Source: Faecalibacter bovis (GTDB lineage Bacteria > Bacteroidota > Bacteroidia > Flavobacteriales > Weeksellaceae). From it: DNA of 64,000 bases. How positions within the stretch are numbered: position 1 is the stretch's first letter; each line of letters opens with the position of its first letter. The notes under the pieces were generated by a model. That model had not been told where the DNA came from, did not search any database, and saw nothing but the letters and a program-made list of their open reading frames with translations. The DNA lies in the NCBI RefSeq assembly GCF_017948305.1, contig NZ_CP072842.1, forward strand, positions 722,001-786,000, in the 5' to 3' direction. Positions 21,551 to 28,568 of this stretch are shown piece by piece. A program made the position numbers and the translations under genes.

Positions 21551-22408
21551 ATGAGTAAATTAAAAATTGCCATTCAGAAAAGCGGAAGATTAAGTGAAAA
21601 ATCCCTAGAATTATTAAAAGATTGTGGGATTAAAATCTCTGCAAGTGGTCGAAAATTAAGAACCGAATCATCAAACTTCCCTATCGAAGTTTTATTCTTA
21701 CGCGACGACGATATTCCGCAATATGTAGAACAAGGAGTTGCTGATATCGGAATCTTAGGTGAGAATGAAGTGTGGGAAAAAAATAAAGACATCAACATCG
21801 TTCGTCAATTAGGTTTTGCGGGATGCAAATTATGTTTAGCCATTCCCAAAGATGAAGTCTATACCGATTTATCGTACTTCGAAAACAAAAAAATTGCTAC
21901 TTCTTACCCACGTATTTTAGGAAATTTCTTTCAAGAAAAAGGGTTGAATGTAAAGATTGAAGAAATTGGAGGAAGTGTAGAAATCGCCCCAAGCATCGGT
22001 TTAGCGAACGCCATTTTCGACATTGTTTCTACAGGTTCTACGCTATTAACTAATGGATTAAAACAAGTAGAAACGGTTGTTGAATCTCAAGCAGTTTTAA
22101 TCGCGAACAAAAGTTTAGACACTGAAAAACAAGCAATTTTAGATCGATTATTGTTCAGAATCGAAGCGGTAAAACAATCTTCAGAAAACAAATACATCTT
22201 ATTAAACGCGCCAAACGATAAGTTAGAAGAAATCATCACTTTATTGCCCGGAATGAAATCACCGACCATTTTACCATTGGCGCAAGAAGGTTGGTCTTCT
22301 ATCCACACCGTAATTAAAGAAGATACTTTCTGGGATATCATCGAGCAACTAAAAGCTTTCGGTGCCGAAGGAATTTTAGTGTTAGAAATTGAGAAAATGA
22401 TTTTATAA
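21551..22408 (+). CDS. hisG: ATP phosphoribosyltransferase HisG (long form)
   Basis: HisG catalyses the first step of histidine synthesis, joining ATP and PRPP. It is 285 residues long, the long form with a C-terminal regulatory ACT-like domain that allows feedback inhibition by histidine. Visible features are the start LKIAIQKSGRLSEKSLELL, GVADIGILGENE, and the PRPP-binding DIVSTGSTLLTNGL. It is the first structural gene after the attenuator. A 79-base inverted-repeat sequence separates it from hisD. Confidence 0.96.
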   Translation: MSKLKIAIQKSGRLSEKSLELLKDCGIKISASGRKLRTESSNFPIEVLFLRDDDIPQYVEQGVADIGILGENEVWEKNKDINIVRQLGFAGCKLCLAIPKDEVYTDLSYFENKKIATSYPRILGNFFQEKGLNVKIEEIGGSVEIAPSIGLANAIFDIVSTGSTLLTNGLKQVETVVESQAVLIANKSLDTEKQAILDRLLFRIEAVKQSSENKYILLNAPNDKLEEIITLLPGMKSPTILPLAQEGWSSIHTVIKEDTFWDIIEQLKAFGAEGILVLEIEKMIL

Positions 22409-22487
22409 GACGTAAGTCTTAAGGTATAAGTCATAAGGACGCTATAAACCTTACAACTTAAGTCTTAGAACTTAAAACTAAGAATAG
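22409..22487 (+). repeat. his-operon inverted repeat element A (hisG-hisD gap)
   Basis: The whole gap is made of AAGTCTTAAGG-like units. A left arm at 22414-22430 and a right arm at 22450-22466 are complementary at 14 of 17 positions, giving a hairpin with a 19-base loop. The right arm CCTTACAACTTAAGTCTT (22449-22466) is an inverted copy, 17 of 18 bases, of the left arm of element B. After it comes TAGAACTTAAAACTAAG, then the hisD ATG. Confidence 0.75.
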
Positions 22488-23780
22488 ATGCAAACCTATA
22501 TAAACCCACAACTTTCAGATTGGTCAGCTTTGACTTCTCGACCAACGAAAGAAGCGCAAGATTTACAAAAAATCGTTTTAGATGTTTTTGGAAAAATTCA
22601 AAAAGAAAAAGATCAAGCATTAATTGACTTTACAGAACAATTTGATAAAGTTCGATTAACTTCTTTAGAAGTTTCGATTGAAGAAATTGAAGAAGCCAAA
22701 GATTTAATTTCCGAAGATTTAAAACAAGCGATTCAAATAGCAGCTTCTAATATTGAAAAATTCCATGCGGTACAACGTGAGGAAGTGAAAGTAATTGAAA
22801 CAACAAAAGGGGTTAATTGTTGGAGAGAATCTCGCGGAATCGAAAATGTTGGAATCTACATTCCTGGCGGAACAGCTCCATTATTTTCAACAACGTTGAT
22901 GTTAGGAATTCCTGCGAAATTAGCGGGTTGCCAAAACATTATTTTATGTACACCTCCTAATCAAGAAGGTAAAATTCACCCTGCAATTTTATATACAGCG
23001 AACTTAATCGGCATTGAAAAAATTTACAAAGTTGGAGGAATACAAGCGATTGGCGCTTTAACTTTTGGAACAGAAACGATTCAGAAAGTTGATAAAATTT
23101 TTGGTCCAGGAAATCAATACGTAACGGCTGCGAAACAAGTGGCTCAAAATTTTGGAGTGGCGATTGATATGCCTGCAGGTCCAAGTGAAGTATTAGTCAT
23201 TGCAGATGAAACTTCCGTTCCTAAATATGTGGCTGCAGATTTATTGTCTCAAGCGGAGCATGGTATTGATTCTCAGGTGATTTTATTAACAACAAATGAG
23301 CAAACGTTAAACGAAACGATTGAAGAAATCAATGCGCAATTAGAAATTTTACCAAGAAAAGAGTTAGCGGCTAAAGCTTTAGAAAATTCAAGAGGAATAG
23401 TTTTAAATTCTATCGAAGAATGTGTTGCTTTCTCGAATATTTACGCACCTGAGCACTTAATTTTCGCTTGCGAAACAGCTGAAGATTTTATTCCAACTAT
23501 CATCAATGCGGGTTCGGTTTTCTTAGGGAACTATTCGTGTGAATCGGCTGGAGATTACGCTTCTGGAACCAATCATACCTTACCAACAAATGGCTACGCG
23601 AAGAATTATTCGGGAGTTTCTTTAGATAGTTTCATCAAGAAAATTACGTTCCAAAAATTATCAGCAGAAGGAATTCAGAATATTGGTCCTGCAATCGAAT
23701 CTATGGCAGAAGCTGAAGAATTATTTGCGCACAAAAATGCGGTTACCTTACGACTACAAGACTTAAGTTATAAGGCGTAA
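22488..23780 (+). CDS. hisD: Histidinol dehydrogenase HisD
   Basis: HisD oxidises histidinol to histidine in two NAD-dependent steps with a zinc ion. At 430 residues it is full length. Motifs include GIYIPGGTAPLFSTTLML, FGPGNQYVTAAKQVA, DMPAGPSEVLVIAD, LSQAEHG with metal and catalytic residues, and YASGTNHTLPTNGYAK. The last residues, LQDLSYKA, are encoded by repeat element B, which runs into the gene's 3' end. Confidence 0.97.
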   Translation: MQTYINPQLSDWSALTSRPTKEAQDLQKIVLDVFGKIQKEKDQALIDFTEQFDKVRLTSLEVSIEEIEEAKDLISEDLKQAIQIAASNIEKFHAVQREEVKVIETTKGVNCWRESRGIENVGIYIPGGTAPLFSTTLMLGIPAKLAGCQNIILCTPPNQEGKIHPAILYTANLIGIEKIYKVGGIQAIGALTFGTETIQKVDKIFGPGNQYVTAAKQVAQNFGVAIDMPAGPSEVLVIADETSVPKYVAADLLSQAEHGIDSQVILLTTNEQTLNETIEEINAQLEILPRKELAAKALENSRGIVLNSIEECVAFSNIYAPEHLIFACETAEDFIPTIINAGSVFLGNYSCESAGDYASGTNHTLPTNGYAKNYSGVSLDSFIKKITFQKLSAEGIQNIGPAIESMAEAEELFAHKNAVTLRLQDLSYKA

Positions 23781-23849
23781 GACTTAAGGATAAATTAGAA
23801 TAGTCAAGCCTTAAAATCTACAACTAGGAACTAAGAACTTTAAAAAAAT
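23756..23849 (+). repeat. his-operon inverted repeat element B (hisD end and hisD-hisC gap)
   Basis: It contains AAGACTTAAGTTATAAGG (23758-23775) and GTAAGACTTAAGG in the left part. The right part has GCCTTAAAATCTACAACTAGGAACTAAGAAC before the hisC ATG, again AAGG-type units on the left and CCTTA...GAAC units on the right. The left part overlaps the last codons of hisD. Its left arm matches the reverse complement of element A's right arm at 17 of 18 bases. Confidence 0.7.
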
Positions 23850-26008: not shown

Positions 26009-26586
26009 TGATTGCGATTATAAAATATAACGCAGGAAATGTAAAATCGGTTTACAATGCCGTAACTCGTTTGGGTTACGAAGCGGTAATTACAGACGAT
26101 TTTGAAACCTTGCAAAATGCAGATAAAGTAATTTTCCCTGGTGTTGGAGAAGCGAGTTCTGCGATGACTTATTTAAAAGAAAAAGGTTTAGATGAAGTCA
26201 TAAAAAACTTAAAACAACCAACTTTAGGAATTTGTTTAGGTCAGCAATTGATGTGTGCTTTTTCGGAAGAAGGAAATACAGATTGTTTAGGAATTTTTCC
26301 AATTCAGGTGAAATTATTTCCATCAACGGAAATCGTTCCACATATGGGATGGAATACCATTTACGATTTAAAAACATCTTTATACAGCGAAATAGAAGAA
26401 AACTCGGATATTTATTATGTACACAGTTTTTACTGCGAACTTTCAGAATATACAATTGCTAAAACCAATTATATTTTAGAATATTCAGCTTCTTTGAATA
26501 AAGATAATTTTTACGCCACTCAATTTCACCCGGAAAAATCAGCTGGAATTGGGGAACAAATATTGAAGAACTTTTTAGCATTATGA
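26008..26586 (+). CDS. hisH: Imidazole glycerol phosphate synthase glutaminase subunit HisH
   Basis: A class I glutamine amidotransferase (192 residues) that supplies ammonia to HisF. The nucleophile Cys lies in [10 protein letters not shown], the catalytic His in [11 protein letters not shown], with the Glu two residues on. The oxyanion loop is FPGVGEA. It overlaps hisB by one base and hisA by four bases, typical of tightly packed his genes. Its partner hisF lies downstream beyond hisA and the inserted four-helix-bundle gene. Confidence 0.96.
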
Positions 26587-27296
26587 GAATCATCCCAGCA
26601 ATAGATATTATCGACGGAAAATGCGTTCGTTTATCACAAGGCGATTACGATACAAAAAAAATATACAACGAAAATCCATTAGAAGTTGCGAAAGAATTCG
26701 AGGATTACGGAATCGAATATTTACACTTAGTGGATTTAGATGGTGCGAAATCAAAGCAAATCATCAACTATAAAACCTTAGAATTAATTGCTTCTAAAAC
26801 CAATTTAAAAGTTGATTTTGGTGGAGGAATTAAAGCAGATGATGATATTCGTATTGCATTTGAATGTGGTGCGAATCAAATAACAGGTGGAAGTATTGCT
26901 GTGCAAAATCCGACGTTATTTCAAGAATGGATTGCGCAATACGGAAGCGAAAAAATCATTTTAGGAGCTGATGCCAAAGATCGTAAAATTGCGACACACG
27001 GTTGGTTAGAAACTTCTGAATTAGATGTGATTGATTTTATCCAAGAATACAAAGCAAAAGGAATTGATTATGTCATTTGTACAGACATTGCTAAAGATGG
27101 TATGTTGCAAGGAACATCGAACGAATTGTATGCAGAAATCTTAGCTGCTGCAGACGTCAAATTAATTGCTTCTGGAGGCGTTTCTTCCATCGACGATTTA
27201 ATTAAAATAAAAGAATTAGGTTGTGAAGGAGCGATTTTAGGAAAAGCGATTTACGAAGGAAGAATTAATCTTAAAGATCTAAGTCGAATGTTCTAA
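26583..27296 (+). CDS. hisA: ProFAR isomerase HisA
   Basis: A TIM-barrel isomerase (237 residues) that opens the ribose ring of ProFAR. The catalytic Asp is in [16 protein letters not shown] and the second in [12 protein letters not shown]. Phosphate-binding loops are FGGGIK and ASGGVSS. The 3' end, encoding KDLSRMF, contains repeat-like sequence AGATCTAAGTC and leads into TTCTAAGGTCTAAGG, the left flank of the four-helix-bundle gene. Confidence 0.96.
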
Positions 27297-27315
27297 GGTC
27301 TAAGGTTATATTTTG
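27275..27315 (+). repeat. his-operon repeat C (left flank of the four-helix-bundle gene)
   Basis: AGATCTAAGTC (27275-27285), then TTCTAAGGTCTAAGG, are left-arm type units like those of elements A and B. AGATCTAAGTC is the reverse complement, with one extra base, of GACTTAAGATCT (27714-27725) on the other side of the inserted gene. Confidence 0.6.
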
Positions 27316-27342
27316 TAAATTAATGAAATAATAACTTATACA

Positions 27343-27720
27343 ATGGCAACAAATTTCGAATCATTAGTTGTTTGGCAGAAATCTCACGAATTAACTTTGA
27401 AAATTTATGAGATTACCAAGGACTTCCCAAGAGAAGAAATATTTGGTATTACAAGTCAAATTAGGCGAGCGGCATATTCTATTCCGGCAAATATTGTTGA
27501 AGGAAGAAAGAAAAGTACAACTGCTCATAAACTTAGTTTTCTTAGTCATTCAATAGGATCTTTAGAAGAAGTGAAATATTTTTTATTACTATCTAAAGAT
27601 CTAGCATATATTACTCAAACTATTTACGATGAAATTTTTCCGTTGACTGAAGAAGTTGGAAGATTGTTAAGTGGTTACGAAAAGTTTACAAAGAACGACA
27701 ACTTTGGTTCTAGGACTTAA
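27343..27720 (+). CDS. Four-helix-bundle protein (S23/IVP family) inside the his operon
   Basis: A 125-residue all-helical protein of the family found in 23S rRNA intervening sequences and related to the Avd helper of diversity-generating retroelements. Family features are the start FESLVVWQKSHELTLKIYE, FPREEIFGITSQIRRAAYSI, PANIVEGRKKSTTAHKLSFL and a final helix ending SGYEKFTK. It has no known part in histidine synthesis, although it sits between hisA and hisF. Its last codons (SRT) and both flanks are made of the his-operon repeat sequence. Family members are thought to bind nucleic acid; the function of free-standing copies is unknown. Confidence 0.88.
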   Translation: MATNFESLVVWQKSHELTLKIYEITKDFPREEIFGITSQIRRAAYSIPANIVEGRKKSTTAHKLSFLSHSIGSLEEVKYFLLLSKDLAYITQTIYDEIFPLTEEVGRLLSGYEKFTKNDNFGSRT

Positions 27721-27815
27721 GATCTAATGTGTTCAAATAATTATAATTAAAGTAGTTCAGTTGCTAAGAAGTAATTTAAAACCTTACGTCTTAGAACTTA
27801 GAACTTGTAACTATT
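27709..27815 (+). repeat. his-operon repeat D (right flank of the four-helix-bundle gene)
   Basis: It contains left-type sequence TCTAGGACTTAAGATCTAA (27710-27728) over the end of the inserted gene. About 50 bases without repeat follow, then a right arm CCTTACGTCTTAGAACTTA (27782-27800) and GAACTTGTAAC before the hisF ATG. GTCTTAGAACTTA is identical over 13 bases to element A's right end (22462-22474). Confidence 0.7.
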
Positions 27816-28568
27816 ATGCTGAAGAAAAGAATCATCCCCTGTCTCGACATCAAAGATGGAAGAACAGTAAAAGGAGTTAATTTCGAAGGATTACGCGACG
27901 CCGGAGATCCAGTAGAATTGGCAAAGAAATATGTAGAAGAAGGCGCTGACGAATTGGTGTTTTTGGATATTACAGCGACAATTGAAAAACGTAAAACCTT
28001 AGCTGAAATGGTTAAGAAAATTGCGGCGGCGATAAATATTCCATTTACAGTTGGTGGCGGAATCAATTCGGTTGAAGATGCTTCGGCTGTAATCCAAGCA
28101 GGTGCAGATAAAGTATCTGTAAATTCTTCTGCGGTGAAAAATCCTCAATTGGTGGCTGATTTAGCGGCTCGTTTTGGATCCCAATGTGTGGTGGTTGCAG
28201 TAGATACTCGCGACGTCAATGGAACGCAAAAAGTGTTTGTCAGCGGTGGAAAAATTGAAACCGATTGGGAAACGTTAGATTGGGTAAAGAAAGTGGAAGA
28301 ATTAGGAGCTGGTGAGATTTTATTAACCTCAATGGATGGTGATGGAACAAAAGCTGGTTTCAAAATTGATATTACAAAAGCGGTTGCTGATGCGGTAAAT
28401 CTTCCGGTGATTGCTTCTGGTGGAGCAGGAAAAATGGAACATTTCACCGAAGTTTTTACCGAAACAAAAGCAAGTGGAGGGTTAGCCGCAAGTATTTTTC
28501 ACTTTGGTGAAATTCCAATCCCGACGCTTAAAAATTATTTAAAAGAACAAAACATTCCGATACGATGA
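27816..28568 (+). CDS. hisF: Imidazole glycerol phosphate synthase cyclase subunit HisF
   Basis: A TIM-barrel cyclase of 250 residues that pairs with HisH to make imidazole glycerol phosphate and AICAR. The catalytic Asp residues are in [16 protein letters not shown] and [14 protein letters not shown]. Phosphate loops are VGGGINS and [11 protein letters not shown]. It overlaps hisIE by four bases. The gap from hisA, created by the four-helix-bundle gene and its repeats, is the only long interruption of the downstream half of the operon. Confidence 0.97.

Follow-up and report, generated by a model that had tools for sequence, protein, structure and literature searches.

The his operon of Faecalibacter bovis carries, between hisA and hisF, a gene for an S23/IVP four-helix-bundle protein flanked by inverted arms of tandem, degenerate units of about 7 bp, and the comparison of loci presented below gives good support to the view that arms and gene are one recurring unit. 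We propose, with a probability of roughly 0.6, that this unit is a dispersed insertion element of mRNA operons, akin to the intervening sequences (IVSs) of 23S rRNA, whose protein acts on its own heptad arms. The features of the window, by which we mean the whole 64,000-nucleotide stretch analysed (host genome G000), are as follows.

22405–22485, no strand assigned: element A, a gene-less hairpin between hisG and hisD, made of two inverted period-7 arrays (RNA fold z −3.27)
23758–23841, no strand assigned: element B, a degenerate gene-less hairpin spanning the 3′ end of hisD, upstream of hisC, with a period-7 array at 23757 (weak RNA fold, z −0.67)
26583–27296, plus strand: hisA, the upstream neighbour (gene call)
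27270–27311, plus strand: left heptad arm, overlapping the last hisA codons, containing AGATCTAAGTC and TTCTAAGGTCTAAGG and pairing with the inner right arm in the fold
27343–27720, plus strand: IVP/S23 four-helix-bundle gene, 125 aa (matches to PF05635, TIGR02436 and PDB 2GSC)
27706–27729, minus strand: inner right arm, GGTTCTAGGACTTAAGATCTAATG, overlapping the IVP stop codon (sequence and fold)
27779–27813, minus strand: outer right heptad arm, ending just 5′ of the hisF start (period-7 scan; in repeat family D6 with element A)
27816–28568, plus strand: hisF, the downstream neighbour (gene call), which served as the anchor for site comparison

In a profile search, the 27343–27720 ORF matched PF05635 (23S rRNA IVP) with an E-value of 5.4e-36 and 123.5 bits, against a curated cut-off of 33.8, covering positions 1–106 of 106, and it matched TIGR02436 at 5e-33. 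The bAvd family (PF22296) gave a weaker match (E 2.6e-12). Among solved structures, 2GSC (Xanthomonas XCC0516; E 2.9e-14) and 2RLD are the closest. The sequence, the gene calls and the PF05635 match bear out the earlier note on this DNA, which had placed a four-helix-bundle S23/IVP gene at the hisA–hisF junction, between mirrored repeat arms; the gene has the same orientation as the operon. The two sequences that it had read as near-perfect inverted copies, AGATCTAAGTC (27275–27285, within the hisA 3′ end) and GACTTAAGATCT (27714–27725, spanning the end of the IVP ORF), are indeed inverse copies of each other, save for a 1-nt indel. The 551-nt unit has a predicted RNA fold with z −2.49, in which the inner arms close around the IVP ORF. 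The outer right array, AAACCTTACGTCTTAGAACTTAGAACTTGTAACTA (27779–27813), shares 80% identity with the right half of element A (family D6), and the arms of this locus match one another better than 97.7% of mismatched arm pairs do. The note had also assigned the arms to a TTAAGAC/TCTAAG repeat family. The repeat arms are real, but they have no fixed sequence: only six exact matches to CTTAGAACTTA occur in the genome, the other copies carry other words, and the repeats are instead tandem, degenerate units with a period of 7, sometimes 8.

The arms were characterized mainly in 90 IVP copies from the genus and the family, all with both neighbours called. Their autocorrelation peaked at lags 7 and 14 (z about 18 and 11–14; 90 loci), with a weaker second peak at lag 8. 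A period-7 array was present in 77% of the IVP-adjacent spacers as compared to 40% of the other spacers of the same loci, and periods 5, 6 and 8–11 showed no excess in this comparison. Different loci use different words, and the two arms of a locus agree with each other: the inverted match was 17.4 between own arms and 10.8 between mismatched pairs (p 1.6e-34; 90 copies), although it failed in some arms, with about 18 of the 90 ranked above 0.25. An arm usually holds 4–6 units, and the left and right unit numbers correlate (rho 0.38). The words are of the AAGNNNT type at the window locus, TAGNNNN at the fad site and the GAG, ACGGTAA or GTACGTT types at argC–argD, and the sufB–sufC arms consist of the 8-bp word GNNAATNN. 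Period 8 rather than 7 was also observed in the arms of loci L003, L087, L088, L091 and L341.

IVP genes are found in all 14 genus genomes, at 2–8 copies each, and in 133 of the 150 family genomes, at 1–17 copies. In each of the 90 copies with both neighbours called, both are co-directional with the IVP gene, as compared to a baseline of 0.56 for the average gene in the host genome. The copies fall into at least 18 distinct junctions, and the operons that bear them (his, arg, fad, suf, conjugation and CRISPR) have no common theme. Over 28 pairs, the median dN/dS was 0.10, which indicates strong purifying selection on the protein, and four broken copies occur in the genus. The fad site is occupied in 13 of 14 genomes; this long residence, together with the purifying selection, would also fit a host function.

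Within the one genus, junctions change their occupant. At hisA–hisF, the IVP gene is present in G000, G004 and G007, the junction is bare in G001 (36 nt), G012 has a heptad hairpin with the same word as the IVP arms and no gene, and several other genomes have a gene-less hairpin with another word. Most members of the genus have the junction uninterrupted or with a gene-less hairpin, so the ancient, fixed hisA–IVP–hisF order that the earlier note had named as a refutation of its reading is not what the genus displays. Two genomes are bare at argC–argD (17 and 21 nt), G012 retains shortened arms without a gene (56 nt), and eight or more genomes have the gene with one of three words. The sufB–sufC junction is bare in one genome (26 nt), holds a gene-less TAG-word hairpin in six and the IVP gene with octad arms in five. 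The states alone do not give the direction of change, gain or loss. Orthologues, which the note had suggested searching for the TTAAGAC repeats, do lack that word, but they have matched arms of another heptad word, which does not speak against the unit in the sense that the note had meant. In the sufB–sufC locus of G004 (L329), the left part of a TAG-word hairpin is joined to the 3′ end and right arm of an octad IVP, as if one occupant had been overwritten by another.

Because bare, hairpin-only and gene-bearing states of a site coexist in one genus, A and B can plausibly be read as versions of the unit that lack the gene. The earlier proposal that they are small empty versions gains from the gene-less hairpins with the same words (G012, hisA–hisF). 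Elsewhere in the host genome, a gene-less TTCTAAG array lies directly 3′ of the stop codon of a homogentisate dioxygenase-like gene (L283:6920), and a convergent spacer holds a long microsatellite of the 4-bp unit GTTA (L282:8186).

In a few cases, related IVPs at different sites have a word in common. The L096 and L101 IVPs belong to the fad-site clade and have its TTAGANN arms, yet they lie at another site, and the hisA–hisF and hisC–hisB copies likewise share a word. These sequence relationships suggest relocation as a unit. The word follows the IVP lineage only among close relatives (at least 60% identity); the overall correlation across different sites is null, and the general rule that word follows lineage fails. 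The compared loci revealed neither a transposition event nor a target duplication, and no catalytic partner. Of the mobile unit of arms plus protein that the note had imagined, the unit with its anatomy is well supported, as is its turnover.

The arrays are also linked to the gene at the level of whole genomes. Counting arrays of four units of two words (TAG and GAT) in the 150 family genomes, we obtained a median of 1 in the genomes without IVP and 40 in those with it (p 1.6e-10), and this number climbed from 9.5 to 68 across the IVP copy-number classes. Because the genomes without IVP are mostly relatives of one another, descent confounds this correlation; two genera that include both IVP states (g2 and g23) agree with the contrast. 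Within large genera, the IVP number and the array number did not correlate. A noisy scan of sampled DNA for period-7 arrays of any word found 11 in 464 kb of the host genome and 3 in 400 kb of the IVP-free genome G081. In G009, with only two IVPs, there are 506 TAG-heptad array matches, and the gene-less arrays seem strongly expanded.

The known system nearest to the unit is the 23S rRNA IVS. In Coxiella, tandem heptamers precede the S23 ORF of the IVS, and the complementary ends of this IVS are cleaved by RNase III (PMC4990558). The IVSs of Coxiella and Leptospira share with our unit the protein family, the sense-strand ORF within an inverted-repeat stem and an expression that, if any, comes from read-through. 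The unit of the window lies outside the 23S gene, at hisA–hisF, but has its ORF enclosed by complementary ends. It differs from the IVSs in its location between protein genes, its long arms of degenerate heptads and its many copies per genome, and its protein is under purifying selection, whereas that of the 23S rRNA IVS is decaying. A search with one conserved motif found no IVP within 23S among the fetched loci. Avd/bAvd of diversity-generating retroelements (DGRs) is a homologous four-helix-bundle protein, but the unit has no reverse transcriptase and no template or variable repeat, and the one DGR Avd that we examined (L342) is without heptad arms. Like REPIN/RAYT systems and MITEs, the unit comprises short, dispersed inverted repeats in spacers with gene-less copies; unlike them, it has its own protein gene and no shared terminal sequence, and most of these genomes have no transposase.

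Beggiatoaceae, Cyanobacteria and Bacteroidetes are known to have heptamer repeats (PMC4679880), as is Xanthomonas, where there are many inverted pairs (PMC4692102), and the heptameric intergenic repeats or STRRs include those of Nostoc, Microcystis, Beggiatoaceae (TAACTGA), Xanthomonas (GGGAATC) and Geobacter. As tandem 7-bp units in spacers (PMC4692102, PMC4679880, PMC2700814), they resemble the window arms, judging from the lag-7 autocorrelation and the window arrays, but were reported as repeats alone; we found no mention of S23/IVP in PMC4679880 and PMC4692102. In the open-access literature that we searched, no paper connects IVP genes with heptad arrays or arms.

The strand rule, the purifying selection and the long residence at the fad site would also be expected if the unit were a host operon device, in which RNase III or some other nuclease cleaves the RNA stem of the arms to separate cistrons or tune stability, with the IVP as RNA-binding partner, and which is kept for regulation rather than for spread. 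The sense duplex energy of own arms (−20.6 kcal/mol, versus −11.6 for mismatched arms) and the RNase III cleavage of the Coxiella stem (PMC4990558) favor such a device, whereas its patchy presence in sister genomes, where the same junctions work bare, and the lack of a shared theme among the host operons disfavor it. The mismatches within the arms also run against it: on the sense strand, A–C outnumber G–U (121 versus 72), and the arms pair slightly better on the antisense strand. A test for RNA-level wobble pairing thus found no support, with the opposite sign, and the RNA-linked unit considered in the earlier note receives no help from these data. The arms seem not to be tuned for sense-RNA pairing; this is only a hint, pointing towards a role at the DNA level, and stop-codon or strand effects may explain it. 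On balance, we regard a host device as unlikely, albeit the strongest competitor. The L111 sequence folds at −16.8 kcal/mol.

A further possibility, which we hold to be improbable, is that the heptad hairpins arise by themselves through slippage and fold-back repair, and that IVP genes simply land or survive there. Gene-less hairpins are common, the words turn over rapidly while the arms remain matched, as quasi-palindrome correction would give, and the unit counts of the two arms correlate. However, arrays are almost lacking in IVP-free genomes, period 7 is kept across phyla despite unrelated words, which slippage alone does not predict, and the gene-less hairpins at sufB–sufC have a word different from that of the IVP arms. 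It is more improbable still that a non-autonomous element is being moved by another enzyme, either a RAYT-type Y1 transposase, as for REPINs, or a reverse transcriptase. The small size of the unit, its inverted arms, its dispersal in spacers and the homology of IVP to the DGR helper Avd would suit such a mover, but both enzymes are mostly absent from the genus genomes. Reverse transcriptase is missing from the host genome, which has no RVT_1 match, and from 10 of 14 genus genomes. Strong Y1 matches occur in only 2 of 14, the host genome having only a fragment-level match (48 positions, 22.7 bits) and no intact-looking gene. Moreover, the arms have no common sequence for one enzyme to recognize.

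We therefore return to an IVS-like element of mRNA operons. The unit, of about 0.4–0.5 kb with one S23/IVP gene and two inverted arms of about 4–6 tandem heptads each, occupies stop–start junctions in operons whose genes run in its own direction, with its gene on the sense strand, and this location would let it be expressed by read-through transcription of the host operon, as with the 23S rRNA intervening sequences. The IVP protein, whose solved Xanthomonas relative is a homopentamer, may bind or anneal the heptads of its own arms, as DNA or RNA, and this binding could allow the unit to be kept, to be copied by host replication or recombination, and to be tolerated. Gene-less hairpins, such as A and B, might be deletion derivatives, or passengers needing IVP in trans. 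The recognition of heptads by the protein, the movement of the unit and the enzymology of that movement are what we infer from the comparison of loci. More tentatively, and with somewhat less than even odds, IVP genes and heptamer arrays could constitute one bacterium-wide selfish or semi-domesticated class that spreads without transposase or reverse transcriptase, its pentamer reading units of about 7 nt, with the rRNA IVSs, the STRR-type heptamers and the orphan S23 genes as its three faces. The wider, unrecognized class has a realistic chance of being correct. The recurring unit points to a dispersed genetic element that may have gone unnoticed and that would connect two long-standing puzzles, the orphan S23/IVP genes and the bacterial heptamer repeats. 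The function of S23/IVP and the origin of heptamer repeats are decades-old questions, and once they are linked, a single protein and a single oligonucleotide would suffice to test both.

The association of gene and arms extends beyond Bacteroidota. A single genome scan supplied 80 relatives, and the 52 loci outside Bacteroidota had a lag-7 peak of z 20.8 and an arm match of 16.4, as compared to 9.2 for mismatched arms (p 2e-15). In all, more than ten bacterial phyla have the gene-plus-arms unit at junctions between genes, and the phyla with IVP and heptad arms include Chloroflexota, Planctomycetota, Nitrospirota, Cyanobacteria, Acidobacteriota, Verrucomicrobiota, Omnitrophota and Patescibacteria. 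Outside Bacteroidota, spurious ORFs in GC-rich DNA make the strand calls noisy. Carriage by phages was considered and dismissed: only 4 of 50,697 phage records had a match, and at least three of the four bear a DGR Avd/bAvd annotation.

A DGR-immunity screen (PMC10053308) and a CRISPR association screen (PMC10910872) both mention PF05635, and the appearance of IVP in association screens could be explained by copies inside CRISPR and conjugation operons, perhaps passengers and not partners. On cyanobacterial plasmids, IVPs with heptad or octad arms lie within conjugation and CRISPR operons, and the CRISPR association of '23S rRNA IVP' (PMC10910872) may reflect hitchhiking of such cas-operon copies (L337, L339 and L341). 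These are located between cas6 and cas4 in L337 and L339, and between cas10 and cmr3 in L341. The IVP arrays of Pseudanabaena are in direct instead of inverted orientation, and in L337, long AAAAGCT/AAAAGCC arrays surround the IVP gene, direct rather than inverted.
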